Shown: positions 43,398-64,000 of the stretch, piece after piece
Position numbering within the stretch: the first letter of the stretch is position 1
Layout of the letters: each line of letters opens with the position of its first letter
Assembly: GCF_014131735.1 (NCBI RefSeq)
Contig: NZ_CP039121.1
Coordinates: 1 to 64,000, forward strand
DNA from: Lactiplantibacillus plantarum
GTDB taxonomy: Bacteria; Bacillota; Bacilli; Lactobacillales; Lactobacillaceae
Reading direction: 5' to 3'
DNA: 64,000 bases
Notes under the pieces: generated by a model
Databases searched by the model: none
What the model was told of the DNA's origin: nothing
The model's input: the letters and a program-made list of their open reading frames with translations, nothing else
Program-made: the position numbers and the translations under genes

Positions 43398-45248
43398 ATG
43401 ATAACGTGGCAAGGGTTGACTACTGAGCAAGTACAGTCAGTACAGGCGGTTTGTGCCGCAATCATGCCGACAAGCGATCTTAGTGTTGAATGCCAGCATG
43501 CGACAACTGGTATTCACATTCAACGCAATGGTGATCAGGTGCGTCTCACATATGGCAGTACGGCAGAGTTGATGCATGGTGCGGCATTGTTATGTGGTCG
43601 AGCCCGGAAAGCAACGCAATTTGATATTCGACAGCAACCAAGATTTGAAGTGCTGGCTGCCATGCTCGATGTTGCTCGTAATGGCGTACCAACAGTTGCA
43701 ATGATAAAGCAAATCATCCGGCGACTAGCAAGCATGGGTTACAATGAGTTATGGCTATATTTAGAGGATCTGTTTGAAATCCCAGAGGCACCATATTTTG
43801 GTCGTGGTCGTGGTCGTTATCAGCAGACCGAACTACATGAGATTGCTTTGTATGGTGATCGTTTTGGTGTGACGATCGTTCCAGCTGTTCAGACTTTAGC
43901 ACATCTGCATAATGCGTTAAAGTGGGATGCGCATGCGGCAGTCAAAGACACGGACGATACGTTACTGGTGGGAGCACCTGCAACAAAGGATTTCCTCACT
44001 AATCTTTTGCGTGCGGCGAGTGCCCCGTTCACAACTAATAAGATTCACGTTGGGATGGATGAAGCCTATCAGCTTGGCCGTGGACGCTATTTAGATCAAA
44101 ATGGGTTTACAGATCAAGAAACACTTATCTTACAACAGTTACAATTAGTCGTATCGTTAACTCAGAAATTAGGTTTAAAAGCTTATATGTGGAGTGACTT
44201 ATGGTTTACATTCGCTTCATCAAAGCATGAAATGTATGATCCGGATGTGCATTTTGACCCTGCCTTTAAAGCGAGTTTACCGCCAGTCGGTCAAGTTTAT
44301 TGGGACTATTACCATGAAGATGAACAGACTTATCGTGAGCGCTTTACCCAACACTTCGAACTTAGTGATGATGTGGCGTTTGCGGGCGGAATCTGGACGT
44401 GGAGTGCTTTGGCACCTAATCAAAGTAAGATGCTGGCAACGATTGACGCGGGCTTGAAAGCTGCCAAAGCGAGTGGCGTGCAGCAAGTAGTTGCGACAAT
44501 GTGGTTTGACGACGGCGCAGAAGTACCTTTTAGTGCAGCGTGGTATGGCCTACAAGCTTTTGCAACTTATCAGTATTACGAGGATGTCACACCGGCGATG
44601 ATCGATACAGAATATGCCATGATACAGGGCGAAAACGCGACTTTTTATCGACTCTTAGATCAATTTGATAACTTTACGAGTAAAGTTAACGTCGATGCTG
44701 ATAATGTGAGCAAGTTGATTCTTTATGAGGATCTAATGTTGCAGCGATACCGGTCTAACTTAGCAGTTATTGATGTTGAAGCTCATTATCTGGACTTAAT
44801 GACGAAGCTTGATCAGGTACACGTCCATCAAGAAAATCAATTGATGGTGACCTTTTACAAGCAATTGGCACGGACGGTTTTAGTAAAACAACGAGCTCTA
44901 AAGGTAGTGGTAGCCCTTGTTGATTCTGATGTAACTAAATTACGGGCTGACTCGGCTCGAGCGGCGGTGACAAGTTGCCAGCATGCACTGGAACAATTAT
45001 TACGCGATTTTCGAGCGCTTTGGCAGCAACAACGGCGTGGAAATGGCTTTGAGGTTATCGATGTTCGATTAGGTGGTCAAATCGCGCGCTGTGAGACGGT
45101 TACTTGGCGTATTGATGAATGGCTAGCAGGACGTGATGACTTAGCTGAATTGCGAGAACCGTTATTACCAATGGATAAGCGCAATAACGGATTGGTCGGG
45201 CACGGGCTGTATAAAGAAATTGTGAGCGCCTGTGAATTGTCATTTTAG
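43398..45248 (+). CDS. Cytosolic GH20 beta-N-acetylhexosaminidase
   Basis: A 616-residue glycoside hydrolase family 20 enzyme without signal peptide or anchor. The N-terminal domain 1 (about 1-75) is followed by the TIM barrel; catalytic Asp-Glu lie in HVGMDEAY near residue 224, and MWSDLWF fits the GH20 substrate pocket Trp. It resembles the intracellular GH20C type of streptococci that removes beta-linked GlcNAc (or GalNAc) from imported oligosaccharides. It opens the putative N-glycan/mannoside locus. RBS TAGGAGG. Confidence 0.85.
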   Translation: MITWQGLTTEQVQSVQAVCAAIMPTSDLSVECQHATTGIHIQRNGDQVRLTYGSTAELMHGAALLCGRARKATQFDIRQQPRFEVLAAMLDVARNGVPTVAMIKQIIRRLASMGYNELWLYLEDLFEIPEAPYFGRGRGRYQQTELHEIALYGDRFGVTIVPAVQTLAHLHNALKWDAHAAVKDTDDTLLVGAPATKDFLTNLLRAASAPFTTNKIHVGMDEAYQLGRGRYLDQNGFTDQETLILQQLQLVVSLTQKLGLKAYMWSDLWFTFASSKHEMYDPDVHFDPAFKASLPPVGQVYWDYYHEDEQTYRERFTQHFELSDDVAFAGGIWTWSALAPNQSKMLATIDAGLKAAKASGVQQVVATMWFDDGAEVPFSAAWYGLQAFATYQYYEDVTPAMIDTEYAMIQGENATFYRLLDQFDNFTSKVNVDADNVSKLILYEDLMLQRYRSNLAVIDVEAHYLDLMTKLDQVHVHQENQLMVTFYKQLARTVLVKQRALKVVVALVDSDVTKLRADSARAAVTSCQHALEQLLRDFRALWQQQRRGNGFEVIDVRLGGQIARCETVTWRIDEWLAGRDDLAELREPLLPMDKRNNGLVGHGLYKEIVSACELSF

Positions 45249-45258
45249 ATAGAACCGT

Positions 45259-45287
45259 AACGACGCCGAAAAAATGGTGTCGTTTTT
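45259..45287 (+). terminator. GH20 gene terminator
   Basis: AACGACGCC (45259-45267) with GGTGTCGTT (45276-45284), then T. Confidence 0.75.
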
Positions 45288-45316
45288 ATTTTGGTTGATA
45301 ACGATAATGGGATGGA

Positions 45317-45369
45317 TGCTAACACAATGCTCGACACTAGCTTGATATGCTGATGTTGGTATGCTAACA
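45317..45369. repeat. Direct repeats before the ABC importer operon
   Basis: ATGCTAACA occurs at 45317-45325 and again at 45361-45369, 44 bp apart. They may be binding sites for the YesN/AraC-type regulator. In between and after them the sequence is non-coding; a LacI-like AAACGTTTTA occurs near 45401-45410. Confidence 0.35.
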
Positions 45370-45522
45370 ACGTGTTAATTCGATTGTTAGGTTGTTTAAT
45401 AAACGTTTTAATCAGAGTGGCCCGTTGATTCTAACAGGATTAGATTGTTGATTTTTGTGTCGAAATTATACCTAATTTTGATGAAATCTTGAGTTTGTCA
45501 ATATATCCCTTAAGTTAGTTGA

Positions 45523-45551
45523 TTGTTGCCGTTTGAGAAAGCGGTTACTAT
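45523..45551 (+). promoter_or_regulatory. ABC importer promoter with overlapping cre
   Basis: -35 TTGTTG (45523-45528), a 17-bp spacer and -10 TACTAT (45546-45551). AGAAAGCGGTTACT (45536-45549) inside it matches 12 of 14 cre positions and would block RNA polymerase if CcpA bound. Confidence 0.65.
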
Positions 45552-45583
45552 AACAGGTGTAATAATGAAAGGAGGGAGAACCG

Positions 45584-46546
45584 ATGGCACAAAATGCCGC
45601 AGTTCCAATCGTCAAGAAGCGCAATTTCTTCCAGCGTTTATGGGACAACCGCGTATTCTTGCTCATGGTTGCTCCAGGTGCGATATTATTAATTATCTTC
45701 TTCTACATTCCCGTGTTGGCTAACGTTGTTGCCTTTCAAAACTTTCAATACTCGGATCAAGGCTTCATCTATAGTGTGCTGCATAGTCCGTGGGTTGGCT
45801 TTCAGAACTTTGCCTTTTTCTTCAAATCGGCAGATTTTTGGATCGTGTTACGTAACACGGTTGGGTACAATTTAACCTTCTTACTGTTGAACTTTTTCTT
45901 TGCCATCTTCTTTGGCATTGTCATGAGTCAAATGCGCAACCAACGACTTTTGAAAGCTTATCAGACTTCAATGCTATTTCCATATTTCTTATCATGGGCA
46001 ATCTTGGCCTACTTCGTATACGCCTTCTTGAGTTCGGATAAGGGTATTTTGAACCATATTATTCAGTCATTTGGCGGGACGCCGATTGACTTCTACAATA
46101 CGCCGTGGGTCTGGCCATTTATCATTATCTTCCTAGGGGTTTGGAAAGGAATTGGATACAACAGTATTCTGTACTTTGCCACGGCCATGGGAATTGATCC
46201 ATCGTACTATGATGCGGCGATGATGGATGGTGCAAATAAATGGCAACAGATTAAAAACGTGACGTTACCACACATCCTACCAGTTGCAACGTTAATGTTG
46301 ATCTTGAATATTGGGGGGATCTTCCGTAGCGATTTCGGGCTATTCTACCTAATTCCGCGTTCATCAGGGACGTTGATTAATGTGACACAGACCTTTGATA
46401 CGTATATTTACCGCGCGCTGACGACGACTAATGATATTGGGATGTCAACGGCTGCTGGGCTAATGCAATCAGTTGTCGGTGCACTGTTAATCATTGTTTG
46501 TAATTGGGTGGTTCGGCGTAAACAACCAGAATCAGCATTATTTTAG
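45584..46546 (+). CDS. Oligosaccharide ABC importer permease (LplB/NgtP1-like)
   Basis: A 320-residue permease with six membrane helices and the EAA-loop motif DAAMMDGANKWQQIKNVTLP near residue 213. It is of the LplB/YteP family that typically partners an extracellular lipoprotein and a shared MsmK ATPase. Start ATG follows GGAGGGAG. First of three genes of an importer. Confidence 0.88.
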   Translation: MAQNAAVPIVKKRNFFQRLWDNRVFLLMVAPGAILLIIFFYIPVLANVVAFQNFQYSDQGFIYSVLHSPWVGFQNFAFFFKSADFWIVLRNTVGYNLTFLLLNFFFAIFFGIVMSQMRNQRLLKAYQTSMLFPYFLSWAILAYFVYAFLSSDKGILNHIIQSFGGTPIDFYNTPWVWPFIIIFLGVWKGIGYNSILYFATAMGIDPSYYDAAMMDGANKWQQIKNVTLPHILPVATLMLILNIGGIFRSDFGLFYLIPRSSGTLINVTQTFDTYIYRALTTTNDIGMSTAAGLMQSVVGALLIIVCNWVVRRKQPESALF

Positions 46547-46558
46547 GGGGTGCCGTCA

Positions 46559-47476
46559 TTGCGTAAGAAAAAACATATTTCAGCTGTTGAGATTCGCAAG
46601 TTCGGACCTGGCGCCAACCTGTTTTTCAACATCTTCCTAGCAATCTTTGCACTATCGTGTATCTTACCGTTCTTCTTCATCATTATCTTATCGTTGACAC
46701 AAGAATCAGATATTACGACGTATGGGTATCAATTCTGGCCTAAACATTGGACCTTTGCGAGCTATCAGTATCTCGCTAAAATGGGTCATCAAGTGTTAGT
46801 CTCATTAGGTGTTACGATCTTTGTAACAGTTGTTGGGACCATAATGAACAGTTTGTTTAGTTCGACGTACGCGTATGCAATTTCTCGTAAGGATTTTGCC
46901 TATGCTAGATTTTTCACCATTTTCGCTTTGATTTCTATGCTGTTTGTTCCAGGTATGGTGCCAACTTACTTGGTTGTGACTCAAATGCTAGGTCTACAGG
47001 ATAATATCTGGGCGTTAATCTTACCGATGAGCTTTGGGGTGTATACCGTTTTGATCATGCGGACTTTCTTCAAGACATCCATTCCGGAAGCAATCATTGA
47101 ATCGGCACGGATCGATGGTGGTAGTGAGTTGCGGATTTTCCGGAGTATCGTGGTACCTCTGGCAATTCCAGGGATTGCAACAATTAGTTTATTCACGTCA
47201 CTAGGTTATTGGAATGATTGGATGAATGCCTTGCTATACATTAACAAGGATAGCGTCACACCATTGCAATATTTACTCATCAAGATTCAAAACAATATTC
47301 AGTTTATGACACAAAATATGCAAGCCAATGGCGCAATTGCGGGTGCCGCCAATGTTCCAAGTGAAGGTATGCGGTTCGCAATCGTTGTTGTTGCAACTTT
47401 ACCAATTGCATTAACCTACCCATTCTTCCAGAAGTACTTCGTCAAAGGAATGACGATTGGTGGCGTCAAAGGTTAG
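46559..47476 (+). CDS. Oligosaccharide ABC importer permease (LplC/NgtP2-like)
   Basis: A 305-residue permease with six helices and EAA-loop ESARIDGGSELRIFRSIVVP. It pairs with the preceding permease. TTG 46559 lies eight bases after AGGGGG, which itself overlaps the preceding stop; GTG 46550 is inside that RBS. C-terminus FVKGMTIGGVKG is typical of the family. Confidence 0.88.
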   Translation: MRKKKHISAVEIRKFGPGANLFFNIFLAIFALSCILPFFFIIILSLTQESDITTYGYQFWPKHWTFASYQYLAKMGHQVLVSLGVTIFVTVVGTIMNSLFSSTYAYAISRKDFAYARFFTIFALISMLFVPGMVPTYLVVTQMLGLQDNIWALILPMSFGVYTVLIMRTFFKTSIPEAIIESARIDGGSELRIFRSIVVPLAIPGIATISLFTSLGYWNDWMNALLYINKDSVTPLQYLLIKIQNNIQFMTQNMQANGAIAGAANVPSEGMRFAIVVVATLPIALTYPFFQKYFVKGMTIGGVKG

Positions 47477-47565
47477 TTTGGTAGTGTTGCGTATTTAATT
47501 CGTTTTAACTGTTCGGGGTATTAATAAGTCATTTCAAAAAACTTTTCCGAGGGGGAAGAACAGCT

Positions 47566-49038
47566 ATGAATAAATTTGTAAAGGGTGCGGCCCTAGTTAG
47601 TGCCGTAGCATTTGGAACAGTGGCACTAGCTGGTTGTGGTAAGTCCAATAGCGATTCAGCATCCAGTAAGGCAACAACCGTTAATATGTATATGCCTGGT
47701 GATAAGCCGAAGAACTATGACGCAATGATTAAACGGGCGAATAAAGAAATTCATAAGACTTACAAGAATATCAATTTAAAGATGAACTTTATCGGCTGGG
47801 GCGATTATGAACAGAAGTACAATGTTATGGTTACTTCTGGTAGCGGTTACGATTTGGCCTTTGCGCAAAACTATACGTCAAATGCACTTAAGGGTGCATA
47901 CGCCGATATGAATAGCGAATTAAAGAGTGGTGGTGTGGCCAACAAAGCGTACAAACAAGTTGATTCAGCCTACTGGAAAGGGCTAAAGGTTAACGGTAAA
48001 ACATATGGCTTCCCAGTCAATGCCAACATTTACGCGCAGAATATGCTGACATTCAACGATGAATTCTTGAAGAAGTACAATATTAGTATTAATGATGTTG
48101 ATTCATACGCAAGCATGGAGTCAGCTTTAGCGAAATTCCATAAAGAAAAACCAGGAGTGGCAGCCTTTGCAATCGGTCAAGGGTTCAAGGCATCACCAAA
48201 ACACATGGACTTCCCATTGGGTAATGGGCTACCATTTGCCATTGACTCTAGTGGTTCAAGTAAGAAGATTGTGAATGTCTACGATACTAGTGAAATGCAA
48301 GGAATCCTGAAGACTTTGCACAGCTATTACCAAAAGGGTTATATTCCTAAGGATGCTGCAACGTCTAGCACACAATATAACTTACAAGATAACACTTGGT
48401 TCGTACGTCAAGAAACCCAAGGACCATTCGATTACGGCGATTCCGCTTTGATTACGAATGCGGGCGGTAAGAAGATGAAGTCTAAGGCCATTACAGATCC
48501 TTATAAGTCATCTGCTCAATCCCAAGTGGCTGTATGGACAATTTCCAAGACTTCCAAGCATAAGAAAGAAGCGATGCAAGTCTTGAACCTGTTGAACACG
48601 GATAAGACCTTGCTTAACAACATTACTTGGGGTCTTGAAGGAACTCAATGGAACTTTACGGACAAGGCTAAGGGTAAGATCAAGATAACCAATAAGTACA
48701 AGCCTAACACATTCATTGGTGCTTGGATGATGGGTAATAACAAGAACCTTTATACTCAAGACTCAACGACTGAAGCGATGATTAAGAAGCGTGATCAATC
48801 TATTAAGGATGCGAAGACTTCTGCAGCACTTGGTTTCAATCCTGATACGAGTTCATTGAAGACCGAGATTACGAACTTATCGAACGTAATGAGTAAGTAT
48901 CTTGATATCTTAAATACTGGTACTGCCGACCCAGTCCCAACAATTAAGAAGATGGACAAAGAGCTCAAAGCCGCTGGTTACGATAAAGTTCAAAAAGAAT
49001 TACAGAAACAATACGACGCCTTCTTAGCTAAACAGTAA
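47566..49038 (+). CDS. Oligosaccharide-binding lipoprotein (LplA/NgtS-like)
   Basis: A 490-residue lipoprotein: signal peptide with lipobox LAGC (Cys24), then an extracellular solute-binding fold (VNMYMPGDKPKNYDAMIKRA; MVTSGSGYDLAFAQNY; AVWTISKTSKHKKEAMQVLNLL) and a C-terminal DUF3502-like region. Family members bind complex oligosaccharides. It determines what the importer takes up. RBS GAGGGGG. Follows the permeases after 89 bp. Confidence 0.88.
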   Translation: MNKFVKGAALVSAVAFGTVALAGCGKSNSDSASSKATTVNMYMPGDKPKNYDAMIKRANKEIHKTYKNINLKMNFIGWGDYEQKYNVMVTSGSGYDLAFAQNYTSNALKGAYADMNSELKSGGVANKAYKQVDSAYWKGLKVNGKTYGFPVNANIYAQNMLTFNDEFLKKYNISINDVDSYASMESALAKFHKEKPGVAAFAIGQGFKASPKHMDFPLGNGLPFAIDSSGSSKKIVNVYDTSEMQGILKTLHSYYQKGYIPKDAATSSTQYNLQDNTWFVRQETQGPFDYGDSALITNAGGKKMKSKAITDPYKSSAQSQVAVWTISKTSKHKKEAMQVLNLLNTDKTLLNNITWGLEGTQWNFTDKAKGKIKITNKYKPNTFIGAWMMGNNKNLYTQDSTTEAMIKKRDQSIKDAKTSAALGFNPDTSSLKTEITNLSNVMSKYLDILNTGTADPVPTIKKMDKELKAAGYDKVQKELQKQYDAFLAKQ

Positions 49039-49056
49039 CACTTAAATCATTTACCA

Positions 49057-49092
49057 CAAAGAGGTCGGGTGCTGGGCACTACGACCTCTTTG
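49057..49092 (+). terminator. Hairpin after the binding protein gene
   Basis: An 11-bp stem (49057-49067 with 49082-49092), loop about 14 bases, but no T-run beyond CTTTG. Probably partial termination, with read-through to the GH13 gene. Confidence 0.6.
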
Positions 49093-49140
49093 TCTACATA
49101 CAAATTGGGCCATAATTAAGAATAGTAGGGGGTCAGTAGC

Positions 49141-50766
49141 ATGCAAGCACATTGGTGGCAACGCGCAACGGTTTATCAGATTTACCCACGTAGCTTTCAA
49201 GATAGTAACGGGGATGGAATTGGTGACATCCCTGGGATTATCAGTCGGCTCGATTACTTGGCAACCCTTGGTGTGGATGCGCTGTGGTTAAGCCCGGTAT
49301 ACAAAAGTCCGAATGCTGATAACGGCTATGACATTGCGGATTATCAGGCGATTGACCCAGCATATGGCACGATGGCCGATATGGATCAGTTGATCGCTCA
49401 AGCGGCTCAGCGTGGCATAAAAATCGTGATGGATTTGGTCGTGAATCATACCAGTGATGAGCATCCGTGGTTTGTGGATGCTTGTCAGAATCCAGATAGT
49501 CCGACGCGCGATTATTATGTATGGGCGGATGCTGTTGATGGGCATGCACCTAATAATCTGACATCTGGTTTCAGCGGCGGTTCAGCTTGGGAGCTAGATG
49601 AACTAACGGGCCAATACTTTTTGCACTTGTTTTCAAAAAAGCAGATTGATTTGAATTGGCAGAATCCAGACTTACGACGCGCAATTTATCGTATGATGAA
49701 TTTCTGGATCGATAAGGGAATCGAAGGGTTTCGGATGGATGTCATAGATATGATTGCCAAGGAGCCACGTGCAAAAATTTTAGTGAACGGGCCGCATCTG
49801 CATGAATATTTACATGAAATGAATCGTCAGACTTGGCGGAACCGTGATTTTTTAACAGTCGGTGAAGCCTGGAGTGCAAGTCCAGAAGATGCGCGACAGT
49901 ACAGTGATGAGCAGCGCGAAGAATTAAGTATGGTCTTCCAATTCGGCCACTTATGGGCTGATCGCCAGGTTGGCGGCGAAAAGTGGGAACAGCGACCACT
50001 TGATGTTGCACAACTGAAACAAGCGCTCTATGCTTGCCAAACGACGATGGCGACTCACGGGTGGAATAGTTTATTCTGGAGTAACCATGACCTGCCCCGC
50101 GCCGTTTCACGCTTTGGGGCTACGGGTCAGTACCGAGAGCTGAGTGCGAAGATGTTAGCCATTGCTTTACACGGACTAAAAGGCACACCTTTTGTCTATC
50201 AAGGGGAAGAGATTGGTATGACTGATTGCCCAGTTGCAACTATCGATCAAGTTAACGATGTTGAAGCCCGGACAATTTATCGACAATTACGAGCACAGGG
50301 TGATGATGCTGGTACCGCCATGCAGAAAATCAATATCTTTAATCGTGATAATGCGCGGACGCCCATGCAATGGACGGCTAAGCAACACGCGGGATTTACA
50401 ACGGGCAAACCATGGTTGGCAATCAATGCCAATTATCCGAGGATCAATGTTGCGGCCGCCCAAGCGGACCACCAATCGATATGGTGGACGTATCAGCGGC
50501 TAATTAGATTACGCAAACAGTCGGCGGTGTTGCAACAGGGTGAGTTTACCGAGTTATCAGCGGTACCGGCACCAATCGTTGCCTACACTCGGAATTGGCA
50601 ACAAACCCAATGGCTAATTTGCGCTAATTTTGCTGATACACTTATTACGGTAGATCTACCAAAGCGAGCATCTGAGTTGATTATCAGTAACTATCAAGAT
50701 TATCCTGAGCAACTGGGGCGGGTGGTATTACGACCGTATGAAGCGTTTATCCTTGCATTAAGCTAG
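49141..50766 (+). CDS. GH13 alpha-glucosidase (oligo-1,6-glucosidase type)
   Basis: A 541-residue cytosolic GH13 enzyme. The conserved regions are present: DLVVNHTSDEHPWF (region I), GFRMDVIDMIAKE (catalytic Asp, near 199), VGEAW (catalytic Glu) and WSNHDLPR (stabilising Asp). It resembles oligo-1,6-glucosidase/DexB enzymes. In a mannosidase locus it could trim glucose caps, or the importer may also serve alpha-glucosides. RBS AGGGGG. Confidence 0.85.
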   Translation: MQAHWWQRATVYQIYPRSFQDSNGDGIGDIPGIISRLDYLATLGVDALWLSPVYKSPNADNGYDIADYQAIDPAYGTMADMDQLIAQAAQRGIKIVMDLVVNHTSDEHPWFVDACQNPDSPTRDYYVWADAVDGHAPNNLTSGFSGGSAWELDELTGQYFLHLFSKKQIDLNWQNPDLRRAIYRMMNFWIDKGIEGFRMDVIDMIAKEPRAKILVNGPHLHEYLHEMNRQTWRNRDFLTVGEAWSASPEDARQYSDEQREELSMVFQFGHLWADRQVGGEKWEQRPLDVAQLKQALYACQTTMATHGWNSLFWSNHDLPRAVSRFGATGQYRELSAKMLAIALHGLKGTPFVYQGEEIGMTDCPVATIDQVNDVEARTIYRQLRAQGDDAGTAMQKINIFNRDNARTPMQWTAKQHAGFTTGKPWLAINANYPRINVAAAQADHQSIWWTYQRLIRLRKQSAVLQQGEFTELSAVPAPIVAYTRNWQQTQWLICANFADTLITVDLPKRASELIISNYQDYPEQLGRVVLRPYEAFILALS

Positions 50767-50769
50767 AAG

Positions 50770-50783: not shown

Positions 50784-50838
50784 TCAATGAATGGATTTTG
50801 ATACTATACAGATAGATTATGAAAAGGAGGAGACAGTA

Positions 50839-51450
50839 ATGATTGGACGCGCAGCGGATAAGATTTTTACACGGGTATTTATTTTCTTAATAATGACCGT
50901 CTATTTTTGGATTTATACAGTCGCTGGGTTGGTTGTACTAGGAATTGGACCGGCGTTTCGAACTGTAACTGAGATGCATATGGATAAGCAGTGGGATTAT
51001 CGGTTATATCACTTTAAGGAAGGATGGCAGCGCTTTAAACGCCATTTTTGGCAAATGAACTTGCATACTTGGTTGTTCTTAGGGGTAGGGGCCGTCTTGG
51101 CTTATAATTTATATTTAAGCCTTTCGATTCATACACTATGGATAATTTTCATTCAATTTATTATCGTATTTGCTTTGATTCTTGATTTTAGCTTAGCAAT
51201 TTTTACCGTGATGTTGCGGTCGCGCTACGATGTTGCCTTCAAAGATGCCATTAAATTAGCAATTGTTCAGTTCTTTAGTAATTTTACGCAGTTATTGACC
51301 TTTATTATTGGCACGATCGTATTGATCGTCATCTCTTTGAAGTGGCCAGGGATGATCCTTTTCCTAAGTCCTGGAATCTATATGGTTGGGGCAGATCGAT
51401 TGTCACGACGGTGGTATGACAAGATTGATAAGATGCTAGGGGCAGTTTAG
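50839..51450 (+). CDS. YesL-like DUF624 membrane protein
   Basis: A 203-residue protein with about five hydrophobic segments (FIFLIMTVYFWIYTVAGLVV and others) and the family motif GPAFRTVTEMH. YesL proteins regularly accompany YesM/YesN systems and LplABC-type importers; function unknown, perhaps a transporter accessory. ATG 50839 follows AGGAGGAG. Its stop is directly adjacent to the kinase start, indicating an operon. Confidence 0.85.
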   Translation: MIGRAADKIFTRVFIFLIMTVYFWIYTVAGLVVLGIGPAFRTVTEMHMDKQWDYRLYHFKEGWQRFKRHFWQMNLHTWLFLGVGAVLAYNLYLSLSIHTLWIIFIQFIIVFALILDFSLAIFTVMLRSRYDVAFKDAIKLAIVQFFSNFTQLLTFIIGTIVLIVISLKWPGMILFLSPGIYMVGADRLSRRWYDKIDKMLGAV

Positions 51451-54623: not shown

Positions 54624-54718
54624 TCAACTTTAACAAGTTGGTTTTGATAAGTGTACGCGTAACCAATTGTAGCGATTGAGTACATTAATCTTAATAAGAA
54701 ATAGTGAAGGTGAAAAGA

Positions 54719-55582: not shown

Positions 55583-55637
55583 TATGGTAATACCAGGTGA
55601 GAAAAACCGGTAAGGCGTGTGGGTTCATATAAGTCGG

Positions 55638-55671
55638 CACCAAGTTGATATATCAACTTGGTGTTTTTTTT
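55638..55671 (+). terminator. ROK kinase gene terminator
   Basis: A 26-bp perfect palindrome (13-bp arms, 55638-55663) followed by eight T. The centre contains TTGATATATCAA, which resembles the operator-like dyad at 60550. Confidence 0.92.
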
Positions 55672-55776
55672 GAATTCGACAATTAAGTGTTGTTCCACTT
55701 GAAATGGTGCTCATAGGAACTTTTGGTAAAATTGCCGAATAAAAGCGAACTTTTTGAATAACCTGCCCATTCATAA

Positions 55777-55790
55777 TGAAGACGCTTTCC
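55777..55790 (+). promoter_or_regulatory. Candidate cre before msmK
   Basis: TGAAGACGCTTTCC matches 12 of 14 cre positions, about 40 bp before the msmK start. Confidence 0.45.
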
Positions 55791-55827
55791 AATACAATTA
55801 ATAGTGTCAGAAAGGTTGGGATTTATC

Positions 55828-56964
55828 ATGGTTGAAATTAATTTAGATCATATTTATAAACGTTATCCAAATGCAGAAACTAACTCAGTGAATGACTTCG
55901 ATCTTCATATTAAGGACAAGGAATTTATTGTCTTTGTTGGACCTTCCGGCTGTGGTAAGTCGACAACATTACGGATGATTGCCGGATTGGAAGATATTAC
56001 GCAAGGAACGTTAGAAATTGGCGGTAAGGTGATGAATGATATCTCGCCGAAAGACCGTGACATTGCGATGGTTTTCCAAAACTATGCGTTATACCCACAC
56101 ATGACCGTTGCGGGTAATATGGCGTTTGGGTTGAAGCTACGTAAGTATAAAAAAGATGATATTGCCAAGCGAGTTGACCAAGCTGCTGAAATTTTAGGAC
56201 TAACTGAATTTTTGGACCGTAAGCCAGCTGATTTATCTGGTGGGCAACGACAACGGGTTGCCCTAGGCCGGGCGATTGTACGGGATGCACCGATCTTTTT
56301 AATGGATGAGCCATTATCTAACTTGGATGCCAAGTTACGGGTATCGATGCGGGCCGAAATTGCCAAGTTACATCAGCGGCTTAGCACGACGACAATCTAT
56401 GTGACCCATGATCAAACTGAAGCAATGACCATGGCTGATCGGGTGGTTGTCATGTCAGTTGGTGAGATTCAACAGATTGGAACACCTTCAGAAATTTATG
56501 ATCGTCCACGGAATATGTTTGTTGCTGGCTTTATTGGCTCACCTGCTATGAACTTCTTCAATGTTCATTATCAAGATCAGGTTATTGATGACCATAAGGG
56601 CGTACAACTAACAATTCCTGAAGGGATGGCTAAAGTTTTAGATAAACGTGGTTATAATGGCAAGGATATCGTCTTCGGAATTCGACCGGAAGATATTCAT
56701 ACTGAAGAGATCTTCATTGATACGTGGCCAAATTCGACAGTTGAAGCCACAATTAACGTGTCTGAATTATTAGGTGCTACTAGCCAGCTCTATAGTCAAG
56801 TTGGTAATACTGAGTTTGTGGCTAATGTTGATTCTCGTGATTTTCATCAACCCGGTGCAAAAGTGCAGATGGGCTTTGATATTAACAAAGCGCACTTCTT
56901 CGATAAAGAAACACAGAACTCCATTATGTTGGATGAAGAGGAAGAAACAGGTAAGTCGCACTAA
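55828..56964 (+). CDS. msmK: Multiple-sugar ABC transporter ATP-binding protein MsmK
   Basis: A 378-residue ATPase: Walker [29 protein letters not shown], Walker [12 protein letters not shown]-loop VTHDQTEAM, and a C-terminal TOBE-type regulatory domain ([13 protein letters not shown]). MsmK/UgpC ATPases energise several CUT1 sugar importers. It is the only importer ATPase in the window, so it probably serves the three-gene importer. ATG 55828; longer ORF starts lack RBS. Confidence 0.93.
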
Positions 56965-57210: not shown

Positions 57211-59358
57211 TTATTTGTTCGTAACACTAGCAGGAACAAGCCCTAAGCGGACGTCAATATTGGTTGCATTTAGTAGCTGTTGATGGCTAATCGTGGCTTG
57301 GTCGTAGTGGTGGCCGTTGAGCGTCATAGTTTGCACAAAATTATTGTGATCGTGATTGTTAGTGGTAGTTAATTGGATATCATGATCGGCCGTGTGCAGT
57401 GTAACGTGGTCAAAAGCCGGAATTCCGAGCACGTATTCCGCATCAGCTGGACAAACTGGGTAGAATCCTAAACATGCGAAGATGAACCAGCCGGCCATGG
57501 AGCCGTTATCTTCATCTCCTGGGAACCCGGTAGTGGAAGCATTGAATAACTTCCGGAGCTGCTTTACGAGTACTTGAGTTTTTTCACGGTGCCCCGTGTA
57601 ACTAAAGAGATATGGTAAATGAAAGCTAGGCTGGTTCGAGATAGCGACCTGACCATAATCGACGGCAGCCATTTCACTCATTTCGTGAATGACCATCTGA
57701 TAGCCACCAACGTGATAACTAGGGCGCGTATTACAGAGCGCTGTCAACTGATCATCGAACCGCTTGGGACCTCCCATGGCAGTCATTAAGCCGTTAATAT
57801 CGTGAAAGGCACTGTAACTATTTTGCCAGGCGCTGCCTTCCGTGTAGTCACTCCCCCAGCTGTCAGGGACAAAGGGTTCTTTGAATCGGCCATCGCTATT
57901 CTTGGGACGCAAAAAGCCAGTCTGCGGATCAAGTAAGTTGAGATAACGCTTGGATAGTTGCCAGTACTTGTTGGCAATATCTGTCTGATCCAATACGTCA
58001 GCGACTTGTCCAATGCAATAATCACTATAGGCATAGTCTTGGGTCCAATTGACACTTTCAGGATACTTGTCTGCGGGGATGTAGCCTAAACGATCGTAAT
58101 CAGCACTGCCTTGCCGACCATAACGGGAATTTTTAGCTGGTTTTGAATCGCTATCACGCATTGCAGCCAGTAAACGAGGCATGAGCTCTAATGCGATACC
58201 TTTCTTAGCACTTTCAGCAATAATTGAGTCAACTAGATTACCGGGCATCATTCCCCGCTCATCTGGCGCCAACCAACGTGGTAAGAAACCAGTCTCATTG
58301 TAGCTTGTTAAGAAGCCTGCCAAAAACTTAGGTAAGAGTTCTGGCGCTAAGATAGAGAATAGGGCGTAAACGGTTTTTGAAGTATCCCAGAAGCCGTTAT
58401 TCGTATAGAGTAGACCTGATTTAATGGTTTTAGACTTTGTATCGTAGTGGATCGGCTTGTTCTTGGCGTCCAATTCATAAAAACGTTGTGGGAATAAGAA
58501 CAGTCGGTACATGCAAGTATAGAACGTTTGAATAAGCTCAGGGTGATGATCGCGAATAGTTACTCGGCTTAAATAATCGTTCCATTGTGCAGCGCTTACA
58601 TTTTCAAGAGCCGTCAAATCGGCGTCTTGGAGTCGTTTTAAGTTAAGCTGGGCTTGCGTGCGATCAACGTAGGATGTGGCAAGGTGACAGTTGATTAGGG
58701 ACTGGTCACTAGCTAAAAGTAGTGTTAGGGCATGACCATGACCTTCAGTTGTTACAAACCAATGATTTTGGTCGTCGTAATAGCCAGAATTAGCACGGTC
58801 AAAGCCTGAAATCGTTAATTCAACGTACATAGTTAGGTTAGGATCTTCGCCACCATGGTAGTCGCTGACAGATAATTTGACGCCCGTTGGGGTAAATTCA
58901 AAGGTTACGTGATCGGAAAATTGCAACATGAGGCCGTGATGAGCTAGCTCTAACTGCTGGAAGTCATAGCGAGCAATGGCCCCATACGTTGATGGTGCCA
59001 AGTCAGTTTGAACGTTAAAGTGATCGTCGTAAATCGCTAGATGGTGCGCATTGAAGGTTGCTTCGTTTGGCCGGTAGTTTCCGACAAAGTCTGGCCGCTT
59101 AGTTGCATCCTGCCATTGGACGCCCATGAGTAATAAGTGGCAATAGTCGCCAATCCAGGGACTGGGTTGGTGAGTTAGGCGAATTCCTTCAAATCGCGGT
59201 GTATCTGGTTGGAAGAACCAGGCGCCGTTAGCGCCGTTAGTCTGAACGGCAAAGTAATTCATCCCAAAGGGCACGCCGCTGTATGGTAAACAGTTGCCAT
59301 GAGAGTGTTGGGGACTGTTGGCGGTGCCTTGACGAATATCAATTTGGTCAATTTTCAT
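57211..59358 (-). CDS. GH92 alpha-mannosidase
   Basis: A 715-residue GH92 enzyme (calcium-dependent inverting exo-alpha-mannosidase, often alpha-1,2). Features: an N-terminal beta-domain (GNCLPYSGVPFGMNYFAVQT), and the barrel motifs FWDTSKTVYALFSI, WLAPDERGMMPGNLVDSII, and GDEDNGSMAGWFIFACLGFYP. No signal peptide, so cytosolic, unlike Bacteroides enzymes. Five bases downstream of the GntR-LacI regulator on the minus strand, hence co-transcribed. Confidence 0.92.
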   Translation of the reverse strand: MKIDQIDIRQGTANSPQHSHGNCLPYSGVPFGMNYFAVQTNGANGAWFFQPDTPRFEGIRLTHQPSPWIGDYCHLLLMGVQWQDATKRPDFVGNYRPNEATFNAHHLAIYDDHFNVQTDLAPSTYGAIARYDFQQLELAHHGLMLQFSDHVTFEFTPTGVKLSVSDYHGGEDPNLTMYVELTISGFDRANSGYYDDQNHWFVTTEGHGHALTLLLASDQSLINCHLATSYVDRTQAQLNLKRLQDADLTALENVSAAQWNDYLSRVTIRDHHPELIQTFYTCMYRLFLFPQRFYELDAKNKPIHYDTKSKTIKSGLLYTNNGFWDTSKTVYALFSILAPELLPKFLAGFLTSYNETGFLPRWLAPDERGMMPGNLVDSIIAESAKKGIALELMPRLLAAMRDSDSKPAKNSRYGRQGSADYDRLGYIPADKYPESVNWTQDYAYSDYCIGQVADVLDQTDIANKYWQLSKRYLNLLDPQTGFLRPKNSDGRFKEPFVPDSWGSDYTEGSAWQNSYSAFHDINGLMTAMGGPKRFDDQLTALCNTRPSYHVGGYQMVIHEMSEMAAVDYGQVAISNQPSFHLPYLFSYTGHREKTQVLVKQLRKLFNASTTGFPGDEDNGSMAGWFIFACLGFYPVCPADAEYVLGIPAFDHVTLHTADHDIQLTTTNNHDHNNFVQTMTLNGHHYDQATISHQQLLNATNIDVRLGLVPASVTNK

Positions 59359-59363
59359 GATCG

Positions 59364-60428
59364 TTATTTCTCCTTAGAAATTGGTTGGAATGGTTGAGTA
59401 GAGTCACGTTGAATTAATTGAACTGGCAAGCGGACAGTAGTTGGCTGAACCGGAGTCTTCAACAGCAAGGACACTGCTTTAGTCCCCATCCCTTTAAAAT
59501 CTTGTGCAACGGTCGTCAATGAAGGGTACGTCAGGCTAGCGGCTTGAATATTATCGAAGCCAACAATTGAAAGCCGCTGCCAGATTTTAGGATCAACTTT
59601 ACGTAAAGTGTTCATCAGCTTGATTGCAGTCAGATCGTTTTCAACAACGATTGCGGTGATCTGATGGTCTGCAAGATAAGTCAACCAGTCATTAGTGCTG
59701 AATTGGTTTAGAGTGGGTAAATCTGCAAGCGCAGTGACCGGCGTAACGTGTTGCTGATTGAGGGCTGTCAAATAACCAAAGTAGCGTTCATAGACGGAAC
59801 TTGGCAGGACTGTGTTATTACGTTGTGCATAGAACAAGATCTGTTGATGTCCAAGTTGGAGTAGATGATCAGTTGCAATTTGGCCGCCACTGAAGTTATC
59901 AGCGGTAACGACTGGCAACTCAAGCGCAGGTAATGTCTTATCCAAGATAACGACTGGAACCTGTGCCAATTTGAGTTGATAAATGCGCTCAGCTTCTTGA
60001 TACAAATCCTGTGGTAAATAAATGACTCCGGCGTAATTTTCGTGGATCTCCTTGGCTGAGAGATTAAAGAAACTCGCGGAATCCATAGTAACAGCTTGAT
60101 AGTGATGTTCACTAGCGGCTAAACTCACGCCGGAAGCATAGTCGCCTAGACCAGCATCGGTTGGAAACGGCAGGACAAGTAGTAGCTGCTTGTTAGTCTT
60201 TGGCTGTTCGGTCGGTTGCACGAAACTACCGCTACCTTGTTTACGGTAAATTAGCCCCTGACTTTCTAGTTCAGTGAGGGCTCGCTTAGAGGTGATTCGA
60301 CTGACGTTGTAAGCTTTAGCTAACTGAAGTTCGGTTGGTAATTGTTCATTATCGGTTAAAGTTCCAGAGGTAATTTGGCTTTTTAATTGATTATAAATGG
60401 TTAAATAGCGCGGTTCTGATTTCGGCAT
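59364..60428 (-). CDS. GntR-LacI hybrid regulator, paralog 2
   Basis: A 354-residue regulator with GntR winged helix (LPTELQLAKAYNVSRITSKRAL) and LacI effector domain (LLLVLPFPTDAGLGDYASG; LSIVGFDNIQAASLTYPSLTTV). Same architecture and shared residues as the protein at 37451-38500. ATG 60428 follows AAAGGATC. Divergent from GH125; it very probably represses the mannosidase genes until a cytosolic sugar binds. Confidence 0.9.
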   Translation of the reverse strand: MPKSEPRYLTIYNQLKSQITSGTLTDNEQLPTELQLAKAYNVSRITSKRALTELESQGLIYRKQGSGSFVQPTEQPKTNKQLLLVLPFPTDAGLGDYASGVSLAASEHHYQAVTMDSASFFNLSAKEIHENYAGVIYLPQDLYQEAERIYQLKLAQVPVVILDKTLPALELPVVTADNFSGGQIATDHLLQLGHQQILFYAQRNNTVLPSSVYERYFGYLTALNQQHVTPVTALADLPTLNQFSTNDWLTYLADHQITAIVVENDLTAIKLMNTLRKVDPKIWQRLSIVGFDNIQAASLTYPSLTTVAQDFKGMGTKAVSLLLKTPVQPTTVRLPVQLIQRDSTQPFQPISKEK

Positions 60429-60462
60429 CGAAAGATCCTTTCCGGTCAATTGAGTTTAGTGT

Positions 60463-60559
60463 AAATATATCATTTTTGAACGAAAAAGGGAAGAATTAGT
60501 TGTAATTTGATATAGACAAACCGGTATTGAATGTTATAATTGGTGAAAATGATATATCA
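60463..60559. promoter_or_regulatory. Divergent promoter/operator region of the mannosidase units
   Basis: For the rightward genes: -35 TAGACA (60513-60518), 16 bp, -10 TATAAT (60535-60540). Operator-like dyads flank it: TGATATATCA (60550-60559, perfect palindrome), TTTGATATA (60507-60515), and ATATATCA (60465-60472). Binding of the GntR-LacI protein here could repress both directions. Confidence 0.6.
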
Positions 60560-60575
60560 AATAAGGAGTGCAATA

Positions 60576-61865
60576 ATGACGACTAACTATGTAGATCAGC
60601 ATGTCCAACAGTTTGTTGCTAAGGTTAATCAGTTGAGCCAACCACTTGATCCCAAATTAGGTACAGTATTTCAAAAAACATTCCTAAATACGCTTGAAAC
60701 TACCATTTCTGACGATGAGCAAGGTTACGCCTTTATCTTGACTGGTGACATTCCAGCCATGTGGCAACGTGATTCAACAGCACAGGTGCGGCCATACTTG
60801 GCATTAGCACATGAGCAACCAGCCATTGCTGACCTGATCACTAGAGTTGTTCAGCGGCAATTCTTTAATATGGCGATTGATCCCTATGCTAATGCCTTCA
60901 ATGAAACGGCGAATGGTCACGGTCATCAAAGTGATCAAACTAATATGGGGCCGTGGATTTGGGAACGTAAATTCGAAATCGATTCGTTATGTTATCCGGT
61001 GCAGTTGGCATACTTGCTCTATAAGAATACCGGCGTCACCGCGCAATTTGATAATAATTTTGTAACCGGTGTCAAAAAGCTATTAACAACATTTGAAGTT
61101 GAACAACACCATGCAACATCGCCGTATCGGTTTATTCGAACGATTGATCGCCCTGAGGACACACTGGTTCGCGATGGGCGGGGCACGCCGGTTGCAGATA
61201 CGGGAATGATTTGGTCCGGCTTTCGTCCTAGCGATGATGCTTGTGAGTATGGGTATCTGGTGCCTGCCAATATGTTTGCGGTCGTAATCCTTGGTTATTT
61301 ACAGACGATATTCAGTAGCATTCTGGATGATCCAGAAATTGTGGCGCGAGCTCAACGACTCCAGACGACTGTGCGTAATGGTATTGAGACGTATGGTTAT
61401 ACGACTAATGCTAATGGTGAGAAAGTCTACGCATACGAAGTTGACGGCTTGGGACATGCAAAGTTAATGGATGATGGCAATGTTCCTAGCCTATTGAGTG
61501 CTCCTTACCTGGGGTATTGTGACTTATTGGACTTAAATTATCAACGAACCCGACAGACGTTATTGAGCCCGGAAAACCCGTATTACTACAGCGGTAAACT
61601 AGCAGCTGGACAAGGTAGCCCCCACACTCCAGCTCGGTATATTTGGCCGATTGCAATTGCGATGGAAGGATTAACCGCCAATAGTCACGAACAACAATTG
61701 GCCGCGTTACAAACGTTGATTAAAACGACAGGAAACACTGATTTAATGCATGAATCGTTCGATGTCGATGACGACACACAGTTTACCCGTGAATGGTTCT
61801 CTTGGGCCAATATGATGTATTGCGAATTATTGTTAACGACACTGGGATTTAAGATTGAGAGGTAG
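60576..61865 (+). CDS. GH125 exo-alpha-1,6-mannosidase
   Basis: A 429-residue GH125 (formerly DUF1237) enzyme. Motifs: YAFILTGDIPAMWQRDSTAQVRPYL split as LTGDIPAMWQRDSTAQ, NETANGHGHQSD, WSGFRPSDDACEYGYLVPANMF (part) and HESFDVDDDTQFTREWFSW (part). Known members cleave alpha-1,6-linked mannose. Start ATG 60576 follows AAGGAG. GH38 follows 6 bp later. Confidence 0.93.
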   Translation: MTTNYVDQHVQQFVAKVNQLSQPLDPKLGTVFQKTFLNTLETTISDDEQGYAFILTGDIPAMWQRDSTAQVRPYLALAHEQPAIADLITRVVQRQFFNMAIDPYANAFNETANGHGHQSDQTNMGPWIWERKFEIDSLCYPVQLAYLLYKNTGVTAQFDNNFVTGVKKLLTTFEVEQHHATSPYRFIRTIDRPEDTLVRDGRGTPVADTGMIWSGFRPSDDACEYGYLVPANMFAVVILGYLQTIFSSILDDPEIVARAQRLQTTVRNGIETYGYTTNANGEKVYAYEVDGLGHAKLMDDGNVPSLLSAPYLGYCDLLDLNYQRTRQTLLSPENPYYYSGKLAAGQGSPHTPARYIWPIAIAMEGLTANSHEQQLAALQTLIKTTGNTDLMHESFDVDDDTQFTREWFSWANMMYCELLLTTLGFKIER

Positions 61866-61871
61866 GTAAAC

Positions 61872-64000
61872 ATGACGAAGAAGAAGGTCTTTGTTATTTC
61901 ACACAGCCACTGGGATCGTGAATGGTATATGCCGTTTGAACAACACCATATGCGCTTAGTGACGCTGATTGATAATTTGCTGGATGTTTTTAAAAATGAC
62001 TCAGATTTCGACAGTTTTCATTTGGACGGTCAGATGATTGCGCTGGATGATTATTTAGCGGTACGACCAGAACGTAAACCTGAATTAGCAGCGGCAATCA
62101 AGGCTGGAAAATTACGAATCGGACCATTTTATATTCTGCAAGATGATTTTCTGATTAGTCCTGAATCCAATGTTCGAAACATGATTATTGGCCGCGATCA
62201 AGCGCGTGAATATGGTCAAGAAGTTCCTTTGGGGTATTTTCCTGATACGTTTGGTAACATGGGACAAACGCCACAAATGATGACGCTAGCCAATTTGAAG
62301 ACAGCTGCCTTTGGTCGTGGCGTGACGCCGACTGGTTTTAATAATCAGGTTGGAGATGCAGACTATGCATCTCAATATTCTGAAATGTGGTGGCAAGGTC
62401 CGGATGGCACTCGCATTCTAGGGCTGCTATTTGCTAATTGGTATAGCAACGGCAATGAGATTCCGGTTGAGCGAACGGCTGCTAAGAAGTTTTGGGATCA
62501 AAAGCTCGCGGATGCTGAAAAATTTGCATCAACGGATAATTTATTAATGATGAATGGTGTCGATCACCAACCTGTTCAATTGGACGTGACGGCGGCAATT
62601 AAGGTCGCAAATGAACTATACCCTGATTATGAATTTATTCATTCTAACTTTACTGATTACCTAGCGACTCTGAGCGCAGATTTGCCTAAAGATTTAAGTA
62701 CAATTCATGGCGAATTAACGAGTCAAGAAACGGATGGTTGGTACACCTTAGCAAATACGGCCTCCAGTCGGGTGTACTTGAAGCAGGAAAATACGAAGAA
62801 CGAACGGTTACTAGAAAATCAAGCGGAGCCACTGGCAGCGATGGCTTATCCGGCCGCGGACTATCCGCACGATCGGTTACGCTATGCGTGGAAATTGTTA
62901 TTGCAAAATCATCCCCATGATAGTATTTGTGGTTGCTCTGTCGATGAAGTTCACCGCGAGATGTTAACCCGGTTTGCAAAATCACAAGAAGTCGCACGAT
63001 TTGTTGCCCACGATGCACTGACAACGCTGACTGCTAAAATCAATACGACAGATTTTAATGAACAAGCGAAACCGTTTGTCGTTGTTAATACGACTGGCTT
63101 TACCAAGACTGGTCTGACAAGAATTGTTGTAGAGTGGGACCGGATTGCTTTTAGCGCAACGGGTACCATTCAGGAGCAACGCCACCAACTTGAACAGCGA
63201 TTAGCTGAATTACCAGAATTAATGGTAGTTGATGCCCATGGTCAAAGTGTGCCCTTTCGACTAATCGATCAACAAGTGGCCTTCCATTATGATTTACCAA
63301 AAGATCGGTTCCGGGACCCATTCCAAGCAATTGAACTCACAATCGAGTTGAACGTGGTCAATATGCCAGCATTTGCTTGGCGGACGTTAGCTTTACAACC
63401 AGCCACACAAACGCTAGTGCCAAATGCAACGGTCAAGGCCCAACCACGATTAATCAGTAATGAATGGTTGAAAATTGGTGTGGAAGATGATGGTAGTTTA
63501 ACGATTACAAATCGGGAGACCAATAAGACCTACCATCAGATGCTTGTGTTTGAAGATACGGGTGATATGGGTAACGAATATATCTATCGTCAAACAGCTG
63601 ATAAGCGCGCCTATTACTCAACTGATTTTCCAATGGAGGTGCGGGTTGTGCATGCAGACGAGTTGGGCAGCGAGTTGGAATTAATCAATTATTTGGAGGT
63701 TCCAACATCCGCGGATGAACAACTTGCTAAGGAGACCCATGCCATTGTGGATATCACGCAGCGAACAGCACAGCGATCAACTCAAAAAGTGCCACTGACG
63801 ATAACGACGAAGATTCGTCTGAATCCTAATAGTCGGCAAATACAATTTGAATCACATGTCAATAACCAAGCAAAAGATCACCGATTACGGGTGCTATTCA
63901 AGACGGCACTGACTGCCGAAACCCACGTTGCTGATTCGATCTACGAGACCGTAACCCGTGCGAACCGACCAGCTAAGAACTGGCAAAACCCAACTAACCC
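61872..64000 (+). CDS. GH38 alpha-mannosidase (partial, cut by window end)
   Basis: An open frame from ATG 61872 to the window end with no stop (about 709 codons). It has the GH38 N-terminal motif VISHSHWDREWYMPFE, the nucleophile region GYFPDTFGNMGQTPQ, LLMMNGVDHQP, and NHPHDSICGCSVDEVHREM near 340. GH38 enzymes remove alpha-1,3/1,6 (and other) mannose. RBS AGGTAGG. Co-transcribed with GH125. Confidence 0.92.
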   Translation, partial: MTKKKVFVISHSHWDREWYMPFEQHHMRLVTLIDNLLDVFKNDSDFDSFHLDGQMIALDDYLAVRPERKPELAAAIKAGKLRIGPFYILQDDFLISPESNVRNMIIGRDQAREYGQEVPLGYFPDTFGNMGQTPQMMTLANLKTAAFGRGVTPTGFNNQVGDADYASQYSEMWWQGPDGTRILGLLFANWYSNGNEIPVERTAAKKFWDQKLADAEKFASTDNLLMMNGVDHQPVQLDVTAAIKVANELYPDYEFIHSNFTDYLATLSADLPKDLSTIHGELTSQETDGWYTLANTASSRVYLKQENTKNERLLENQAEPLAAMAYPAADYPHDRLRYAWKLLLQNHPHDSICGCSVDEVHREMLTRFAKSQEVARFVAHDALTTLTAKINTTDFNEQAKPFVVVNTTGFTKTGLTRIVVEWDRIAFSATGTIQEQRHQLEQRLAELPELMVVDAHGQSVPFRLIDQQVAFHYDLPKDRFRDPFQAIELTIELNVVNMPAFAWRTLALQPATQTLVPNATVKAQPRLISNEWLKIGVEDDGSLTITNRETNKTYHQMLVFEDTGDMGNEYIYRQTADKRAYYSTDFPMEVRVVHADELGSELELINYLEVPTSADEQLAKETHAIVDITQRTAQRSTQKVPLTITTKIRLNPNSRQIQFESHVNNQAKDHRLRVLFKTALTAETHVADSIYETVTRANRPAKNWQNPTN

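Follow-up and report, generated by a model that had tools for sequence, protein, structure and literature searches.

A probable N-glycan-core utilisation locus in Lactiplantibacillus plantarum and a ROK2-GH1 gene pair as candidates for the cleavage of Man-beta-1,4-GlcNAc

We analyzed the first 64,000 bases (hereafter, the window) of contig 1, NZ_CP039121.1, of the two-contig, 3.25-Mb genome of Lactiplantibacillus plantarum (assembly GCF_014131735.1), the distal part of which had been read in an initial annotation as a locus for the uptake and trimming of mannosylated oligosaccharides. A Pfam scan showed that the families named there, from GH20 and the CUT1 importer to GH38, are all encoded between 43398 and the window end, in the order listed and in frames free of internal stops. 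The span given, 43398 to 64000, held these genes but missed the end of the locus: on the same contig read onward, GH38 extends to genome base 64571, with a second ROK kinase gene (ROK2, 64571-65449) and a GH1 gene (65455-66846) next in line, both beyond the window. GH125, GH38, ROK2 and GH1 are tightly packed, with gaps of 6, -1 and 5 bp, so that the operon runs to 66846. Judging from gene content, order and homology, the locus as a whole is very probably a chromosomal N-glycan-core utilisation locus of the NgtS/CPL/TCS07 kind known from streptococci.

The importer genes lie on the plus strand and comprise an NgtP1-like permease (45584-46546), an NgtP2-like permease (46550-47476; both PF00528) and an NgtS-like binding lipoprotein (binding protein, SBP; 47566-49038; DUF3502 and SBP_bac_1), in which a lipobox, LAGC, was recognized by eye. 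The sole PDB matches of the SBP were 5swa/5swb, 5suo and 5mlt, at E values of about 1e-115, and its residues 23-488 aligned with residues 6-465 of 5swa (E 2e-115), indicating homology to NgtS over its length; 5SUO, 5SWA and 5SWB are NgtS structures (PMC5215778). With Trp386 and Trp81 of NgtS located in its chain by position, the SBP residue matched to Trp386, which stacks on Man-GlcNAc (W387), was Trp in all of the 85 sequences compared, that of the window among them, and the one matched to Trp81, of the alpha-1,6 arm (W78), was Trp in 80, Phe in 4 and Tyr in 1. Further along the same strand are genes for a YesL-like DUF624 membrane protein (50791-51450; PF04854), a YesM-type sensor histidine kinase (HK, 51451-53163; PF06580, HAMP and HATPase_c) and a YesN-type AraC response regulator (RR, 53160-54623; PF00072 and PF12833). 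As in the TCS07 system, the HK and the AraC-type RR are encoded inside the importer operon, and the pair is predicted to respond to a ligand. An MsmK/UgpC-type ATPase (55804-56964, plus strand, likely start ATG 55828; PF00005, OB_MalK and TOBE_2) scored 482.7 bits against NF008653, as compared with a cut-off of 432. A cre-like sequence (..CGCTTTC.. or similar) 5' of MsmK (window 55770-55828) seems, by eye, to be kept in the sister-species loci L004-L006, which suggests catabolite control of the ATPase.

The glycosidases include a GH20C-type exo-beta-N-acetylhexosaminidase (43398-45248, plus strand; PF18088 and PF00728; closest PDB matches 5a6b/5a69, GH20C), a dextran-glucosidase/oligo-1,6-glucosidase-like GH13 enzyme (49141-50766, plus strand; PF00128; best PDB matches 4aie and 2zic), an alpha-1,2-mannosidase-like GH92 enzyme (57211-59358, minus strand; PF07971/PF17678; PDB matches 7fe1/6dwo first, then 5swi), an exo-alpha-1,6-mannosidase-like GH125 enzyme (60540-61865, plus strand, likely start ATG 60576; PF06824; PDB 3qpf) and a GH38 alpha-mannosidase (61872-64571, plus strand, interrupted by the window end at 64000; closest PDB matches 3lvt and 2wyh). 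No signal peptide was seen by eye in any of these five proteins, in agreement with the initial annotation. The first kinase, ROK1 (54704-55582, plus strand; PF00480), is a ScrK-like fructo/mannokinase with the ExGH histidine kept, and scored 349 bits against NF045550, under the cut-off of 400. As in the pneumococcal CPL, a GH125-GH38 pair is thus found together with GH92, GH20C and ROK. The only GH125 match in this genome is the locus copy; a second, divergent GH38 gene lies at G000:C1:405638-406429 (L136), near a phosphotransferase system (PTS) EIIA gene.

The genes from P1 and P2 through SBP, GH13, YesL, HK and RR to ROK1 run in one direction and are separated by -4 to 102 bp, while GH92 and the GntR-LacI regulator GLR1 (59364-60449, likely start 60428; GntR and Peripla_BP_3) occupy the opposite strand, and GH125-GH38-ROK2-GH1 begins at the divergent promoter between them; GLR1 is divergent from GH125 in other genera, too. 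Terminator-like hairpins were seen after GH20 (45259), ROK1 (55636) and MsmK (57039); these are the three longest of a scan whose overall yield was near chance (19 versus 15.1 in shuffles). Because of these hairpins and the divergent GH92-regulator pair, the locus is probably not a single transcript, and GH20 probably forms a transcription unit of its own. Directly 5' of GH125 lies the top-scoring promoter-like sequence of the region, TAGACA-16-TATAAT (60513-60540, plus strand, 11/12), although the promoter scan in total gave no more matches than shuffles (36 versus 40.4). The predicted GLR1 operator, ATGATATATCAA (60549-60560), is found just 3' of its -10-like box. Since it sits between this box and the GH125 ribosome-binding site, its position is that of a repressor site, and it is from this position that GLR1 is predicted to bind TGATATATCA.

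The sequence is strongly conserved at this place. In 61 non-redundant GntR-LacI/GH125 intergenics, taken with 60-bp margins, TGATATATCA was present exactly in 44 (shuffle mean 0.05, maximum 1 in 100 shuffles) and with at most one mismatch in 52 (shuffle mean 2.4, maximum 8). Within the 2.74 Mb of fetched loci, 105 of 106 exact sites lay between 400 bp before and 60 bp after the start of a locus gene, a count that includes overlapping loci, chosen around these same genes. In its own 3.25-Mb genome (G000), the 12-base pattern WTGATATATCAW has two sites, at 55645 and 60549, both inside the locus; the reversed control pattern also has two, so there is no enrichment, and it is the placement, not the genome-wide number, that is telling. 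Conservation of this operator in the GntR-LacI/GH125 promoter appears to be new: in a literature survey made mostly without subscription papers, neither the operator nor a published enzyme for the Man-GlcNAc step was found among the matches listed.

The site at 55645, an exact TTGATATATCAA, is held by the terminator-like hairpin after ROK1 (55636-55665, plus strand), and its role as a second functional operator is uncertain: it is not conserved in L004-L006, although locus L034 has an exact site 40 bp 5' of its MsmK. Across the window, TTGATATATCAA with two mismatches occurred 7 times versus 5.2 by chance. Helical phasing of operator copies was dropped, as it was not significant (p about 0.06; 37 loci with at least two sites, outer spacing mostly 86-137).

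To place the locus among others, an alignment of 21 SBP sequences, the window's included, was searched against one genome per species (84,980 species), and 79 SBP-anchored loci were obtained from the best 80 of 215 matches. Genes were counted within 10 kb of the SBP gene, and the counts are minimum values because of contig ends and the removal of overlapping frames. P1 was found in 78 loci, P2 in 77, HK in 76, and YesL and RR in 67 each, followed by GH125 (51), GH92 (43), GLR1 (40), GH38 (39), GH20 (17) and GH13 (8). P1, P2, SBP, HK and RR occurred together in 64 of the 79 loci, 41 of which also had GH125, and a strong MsmK (at least 60% identity) was present in 15, S. cristatus included. Around GH125, 39 loci contained GH38 in 37, GH92 in 29, GLR1 in 26 and SBP in 16 cases. 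By these counts, clustering of importer, sensor and mannosidases is common, and the recurrence of the gene set in other genera, which include Enterococcus, Vagococcus, Listeria, Companilactobacillus, Erysipelothrix and Streptococcus, shows that it is not a chance gathering. GH125 itself was found in 188 of 395 sampled genomes of the order.

Pneumococcal NgtS, SpGH92 and CPL have been studied experimentally (PMC5215778, 2017). The locus shares GH20C, ROK, GH38, GH125, GH92 and an NgtS-type importer with the CPL and ABC-NG (NgtS-P1-P2) of S. pneumoniae, and differs in being a single chromosomal cluster with added MsmK, GH13, GntR-LacI and GH1 genes. Unlike the CPL, it gave no Alpha_L_fucos (GH29) match among the locus proteins scanned, and its GH85 gene lies elsewhere, truncated; S. 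intermedius, S. suis and S. iniae likewise lack gh29 (PMC7075642). With the streptococcal TCS07 regulon (PMC7075642, 2020), the locus shares the two-component pair, a hypothetical protein in its operon, the importer and the CPL. Overexpression of RR07 induces NgtS-P1-P2, CPL, ScrK, ManA and BglA3, and bglA3 lies just 3' in S. gordonii, S. cristatus and S. iniae (PMC7075642), as GH1 does here. The order in S. cristatus (L081) is GH92-GH125-GH38-ROK2-GH20-P1-P2-SBP-YesL-HK-AraC-MsmK-GH1; its HK is 31% identical to the one here, where GntR-LacI and the operator are extra. Enterococcal clusters (e.g. L024, L025, L027, L028, L031, L032) have P1-P2-SBP-YesL-HK-RR, then GH92-GLR1, encoded on the minus strand, and GH125-GH38. 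They share the palindrome; unlike the locus here, they gave no GH20 or GH13 match within 10 kb.

In view of these systems, the integration of importer, sensor, ATPase and regulators in one locus cannot be regarded as new, as the initial annotation had supposed. Importer, CPL and two-component system lie together in S. gordonii, S. cristatus, S. intermedius, S. parasanguinis, S. suis and S. iniae (PMC7075642), the Lactobacillus plantarum CPL is named, along with additional regulators and sensors, in a supplementary legend (S2 Fig; PMC5215778), and the 64 of 79 loci with importer and sensor and the 15 with MsmK point the same way. By contrast, import and cytosolic trimming of mannosylated N-glycan pieces remains the best-supported reading, given the NgtS-like SBP and the CPL-like enzymes.

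The pathway that we propose would begin with the NgtS-like lipoprotein and the two permeases, which, powered by MsmK, would import mannose-rich oligosaccharides with a reducing-end GlcNAc (Man3-5GlcNAc). In the cytosol, mannose would be stripped by GH92 (alpha-1,2), GH38 (alpha-1,3) and GH125 (alpha-1,6), GH20C would take off beta-linked GlcNAc, and ROK1 would phosphorylate the freed hexose. The YesM/YesN pair may sense the sugar outside and switch on the importer, while GntR-LacI would bind TGATATATCA at the GH125 promoter until released by an internal sugar. In the last step, ROK2 would phosphorylate the leftover Man-beta-1,4-GlcNAc, and GH1 would split the product into Man-6-P and GlcNAc.

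For this last step, the pneumococcal literature provides no owner: the fate of Man1GlcNAc is given as unknown, with no candidate beta-1,4-mannosidase identified in S. pneumoniae (PMC5215778), and a pneumococcal model without a candidate for the Man-beta-1,4-GlcNAc cut is repeated in PMC6160142. The ROK2-GH1 pair appears to offer new candidates. No GH130 was found in the L. plantarum genome. The best PDB matches of ROK2 were 2gup, a ROK family protein that we take to be pneumococcal SP_2142, and then the beta-glucoside kinase 4htl. At the ExGH position, 2gup and 4htl have Tyr and the three other kinases aligned have His; in the fetched loci, the own one included, this His was present in 27 of 27 ROK1-class proteins and in none of 46 ROK2-class proteins, in which it is replaced by Leu (18), Tyr (16), Phe (7), Cys (3) or Met (2). 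The ExGH His of free-hexose kinases lies near the anomeric end and often binds zinc, and its loss in ROK2 can be read, in the light of ROK structures, as fitting a glycoside substrate.

The locus GH1, distinct from the nine other GH1 genes of the genome, is near-identical to PDB 5naq/5nav, labelled beta-galactosidase; 5naq (source L. plantarum) is presumably Lp_3629, i.e., the locus GH1 gene. Against 4b3k/5foo, which carry the labels beta-glucosidase and 6-phospho-beta-D-glycosidase and which we take to be SPy1599 of S. pyogenes, it scored about 620 bits. A clade segment, WSW..NRYG, was found in 47 frames of the fetched loci and is carried by 4b3k/5foo as well. The canonical phosphate-binding loop of GH1 6-phospho-beta-glycosidases consists of Ser, Lys and Tyr; in the locus GH1, Ser and Tyr are kept and Lys is replaced by Asn or shifted by one, and 4b3k/5foo has the same loop. 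No role in N-glycan breakdown is assigned to the 5naq and 4b3k/5foo enzymes in the texts surveyed. The eleven GH1 proteins of L. plantarum WCFS1, among them Lp_3629, are all reported to cut 6-P-beta-glucosides, and none is active on beta-glucoside or the other pNP (p-nitrophenyl) sugars tried; Lp_3629 is weak on pNP-beta-Gal (0.09), with no 6P-beta-Gal activity detected (PMC10360150). The same article cites SPy1599 as a 6-phospho-beta-glucosidase.

We further examined the placement of the GH1 clade, called at E up to 1e-90, in 80 chosen genomes, 55 with GH125 and 25 without. It was present in 48 of the 55 and 11 of the 25 (Fisher p 2e-4, kinship not corrected); the corresponding fractions were 8/15 and 0/7 in Lactobacillaceae and 40/40 and 11/18 in the rest. 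A ROK2-class gene and GH1 lay on the same strand within 1.5 kb, in both gene orders, in 19 of the 59 GH1-bearing genomes, as compared with about 0.27 expected. The 47 GH1 frames were picked by hand and are partly redundant; 32 of them had a CPL/importer gene within 6 kb, 27 a ROK gene within 1.5 kb and 12 a PTS EIIC gene within 6 kb, and 2 had none of these. A tendency to lie near a kinase or a PTS is what would be expected of a phosphoglycosidase. Three loci of one family (L141-L143, f3) have a GH29 fucosidase gene and a PTS EIIC gene no more than 5 kb from the GH1-ROK2 pair, and in S. castoreus (L054) GH1 lies beside GH92. Strong GH130 matches were found in 6 of the 55 GH125-positive and none of the 25 GH125-negative genomes; the idea that GH1 and GH130 exclude each other was dropped, since five of the six strong-GH130 genomes carry the GH1 clade too and neither is present in several Lactobacillaceae.

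Based on these data, we put forward, tentatively and at somewhat less than even confidence, that ROK2, which is related to the ROK of the pneumococcal CPL, adds phosphate to the mannose of Man-beta-1,4-GlcNAc, that the GH1 clade of BglA3, SPy1599 and Lp_3629 is a 6-phospho-beta-mannosidase yielding Man-6-P and GlcNAc, and that these genes are partly united by a GntR-LacI repressor reading TGATATATCA. In 16 genomes, the operator pattern had 50 sites versus 18 for the control pattern. Of the five sites in the G039 genome, three belong to the mannosidase cluster, one stands 89 bp ahead of an unlinked GH1-ROK2 pair and one lies elsewhere; in G031, a member of the same genus, a site with one mismatch precedes this GH1. 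Several observations weigh against the proposal. At least 19 of the 50 sites, and not most, lie in a mannosidase cluster or before a GH1 pair (10 of the 16 genomes), as counted from coordinates with the place of GH125 in G200 not listed and none there in G149, G011, G313 and G026, and only 2 of the 47 GH1 frames, both of one genus, have an operator-like site within 300 bp upstream. The GH1 clade is absent from seven of the 55 GH125 genomes and present in 11 of the 25 GH125-negative ones. The ROK gene next to GH1 belongs to the fructokinase-like ROK1 class in five SBP-anchored loci. Immobilised Lp_3629 hydrolyses lactose and lactulose (PMC10360150), which speaks against a strict phosphate requirement.

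A possible, though doubtful, alternative is that ROK2-GH1 is a general beta-glucoside module, which phosphorylates and then cuts, hitch-hiking beside the mannosidases. The beta-glucoside kinase as second PDB match of ROK2, the cutting of 6-P-beta-glucosides by all eleven WCFS1 proteins (PMC10360150) and the GH1 clade in GH125-negative genomes are consistent with such a module, as is the occurrence of the pair away from mannosidases and near the fucosidase and PTS EIIC genes. However, in 11 of the 36 genomes with both coordinates listed, GH1 and GH125 are no more than 12 kb apart, as compared with about 0.65 expected, and in two loci GH1 stands between GH125 and GH38. The mannosidase operator before the unlinked pair in one genus and the induction of the pneumococcal GH1 BglA3 by RR07 overexpression (log2 7.6; PMC7075642) also speak against a general module.

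The supply of substrate to the N-glycan-core pathway is in doubt, since the gene for GH85, the endo-beta-N-acetylglucosaminidase that would release the glycans, is truncated and no GH18 match was found in the genome. The sole GH85 match (G000:C1:3082462-3083871; L135:3463-4872), with a lipoprotein-like signal, has its first frame ended by one in-frame TAA at profile position 280 of 302; GH85 occurs in 4 of 21 genus members searched, the own genome included, and the three others have no stops. The strain may thus depend on sugars freed by others. Beside this GH85 gene, an apparent PTS gene and a fructokinase-like ROK were seen by eye, and also GH65. GH13 fits an N-glycan role poorly: it is closest to glucan 1,6-alpha-glucosidases, and its region II, GFRMDVID, is typical of alpha-1,6-glucosidases. 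GH13 is also present in N-glycan loci of other genera (e.g. L009, L011, L073, L096, L121), without an obvious substrate there. Three GH20-importer clusters (L008, L010, L015) have no mannosidase match in their 10-kb flanks (right flank of L008, 6.3 kb), so that the SBP clade may carry other GlcNAc-ended sugars.

It is also conceivable, but we consider it unlikely, that the locus serves chiefly for fungal or plant mannose oligosaccharides, such as yeast mannan fragments or free plant N-glycans, rather than host glycoproteins. Lactiplantibacillus inhabits plants, food and guts, and the truncated GH85 would agree with such substrates; yeast outer-chain mannan pieces, however, have no reducing-end GlcNAc. 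Although GH38, GH92 and GH125 enzymes act on fungal mannan as well (PMC10154615), the SBP is of the NgtS type, whose pocket closes on the reducing-end GlcNAc (PMC5215778), GH20C is present, and no GH76 or GH99 was found among the locus proteins scanned, the whole genome not having been searched for them. Direct hydrolysis of unphosphorylated Man-beta-1,4-GlcNAc by GH1, with ROK2 phosphorylating the released monosaccharide, is quite improbable: although 8 of 31 listed beta-mannosidases are GH1 (PMC6160142), Lp_3629 cuts unphosphorylated beta-galactosides (PMC10360150) and a fructokinase-like ROK stands beside GH1 in the five loci above, the ExGH histidine is missing from 46 of 46 ROK2-class proteins, the eleven GH1 proteins are inactive on unphosphorylated pNP sugars except the beta-galactoside (the text searched does not state whether beta-mannoside was among the 24; PMC10360150), and the GH1 clade is also found near PTS EIIC genes, where the substrate would arrive phosphorylated.

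The surroundings of the locus were also inspected. The second of two GntR-LacI genes that had been assigned to the locus lies outside it, at 37451-38536, past an ABC exporter pair and an AraC gene; the minus strand 5' of GH20 (window 36553-43226) encodes this pair, the second GntR-LacI and a PucR-like protein, and the AraC gene is divergent. In sister species, exporters and GntR-LacI (L004, L006) or AraC (L005, L006) also precede GH20. The four genes scanned 3' of GH1 look unrelated to the locus; this region (L003:8310-16607) contains a short gene resembling those of Y-family polymerases, as well as genes for a GH25 protein and for an LPXTG/MucBP surface protein, both of which have KxYKxGKxW signal peptides. 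Scans of the 64-kb window for tRNA genes and Rfam families gave no matches.

Taken together, the locus is a lactobacillus case of a well-described N-glycan system, and its presence is of modest interest; its main value lies in pointing to candidate enzymes for a step to which none had been assigned, the Man-beta-1,4-GlcNAc cut. The operator provides a sequence handle for tracing the rest of the regulon in other genera. If our proposal for ROK2 and GH1 is true, the fate of the disaccharide called unknown in PMC5215778 would be assigned across many Lactobacillales, and a single job would be shared by a CPL kinase with no assigned function, by BglA3, which is co-induced, and by Lp_3629, a weak beta-galactosidase.

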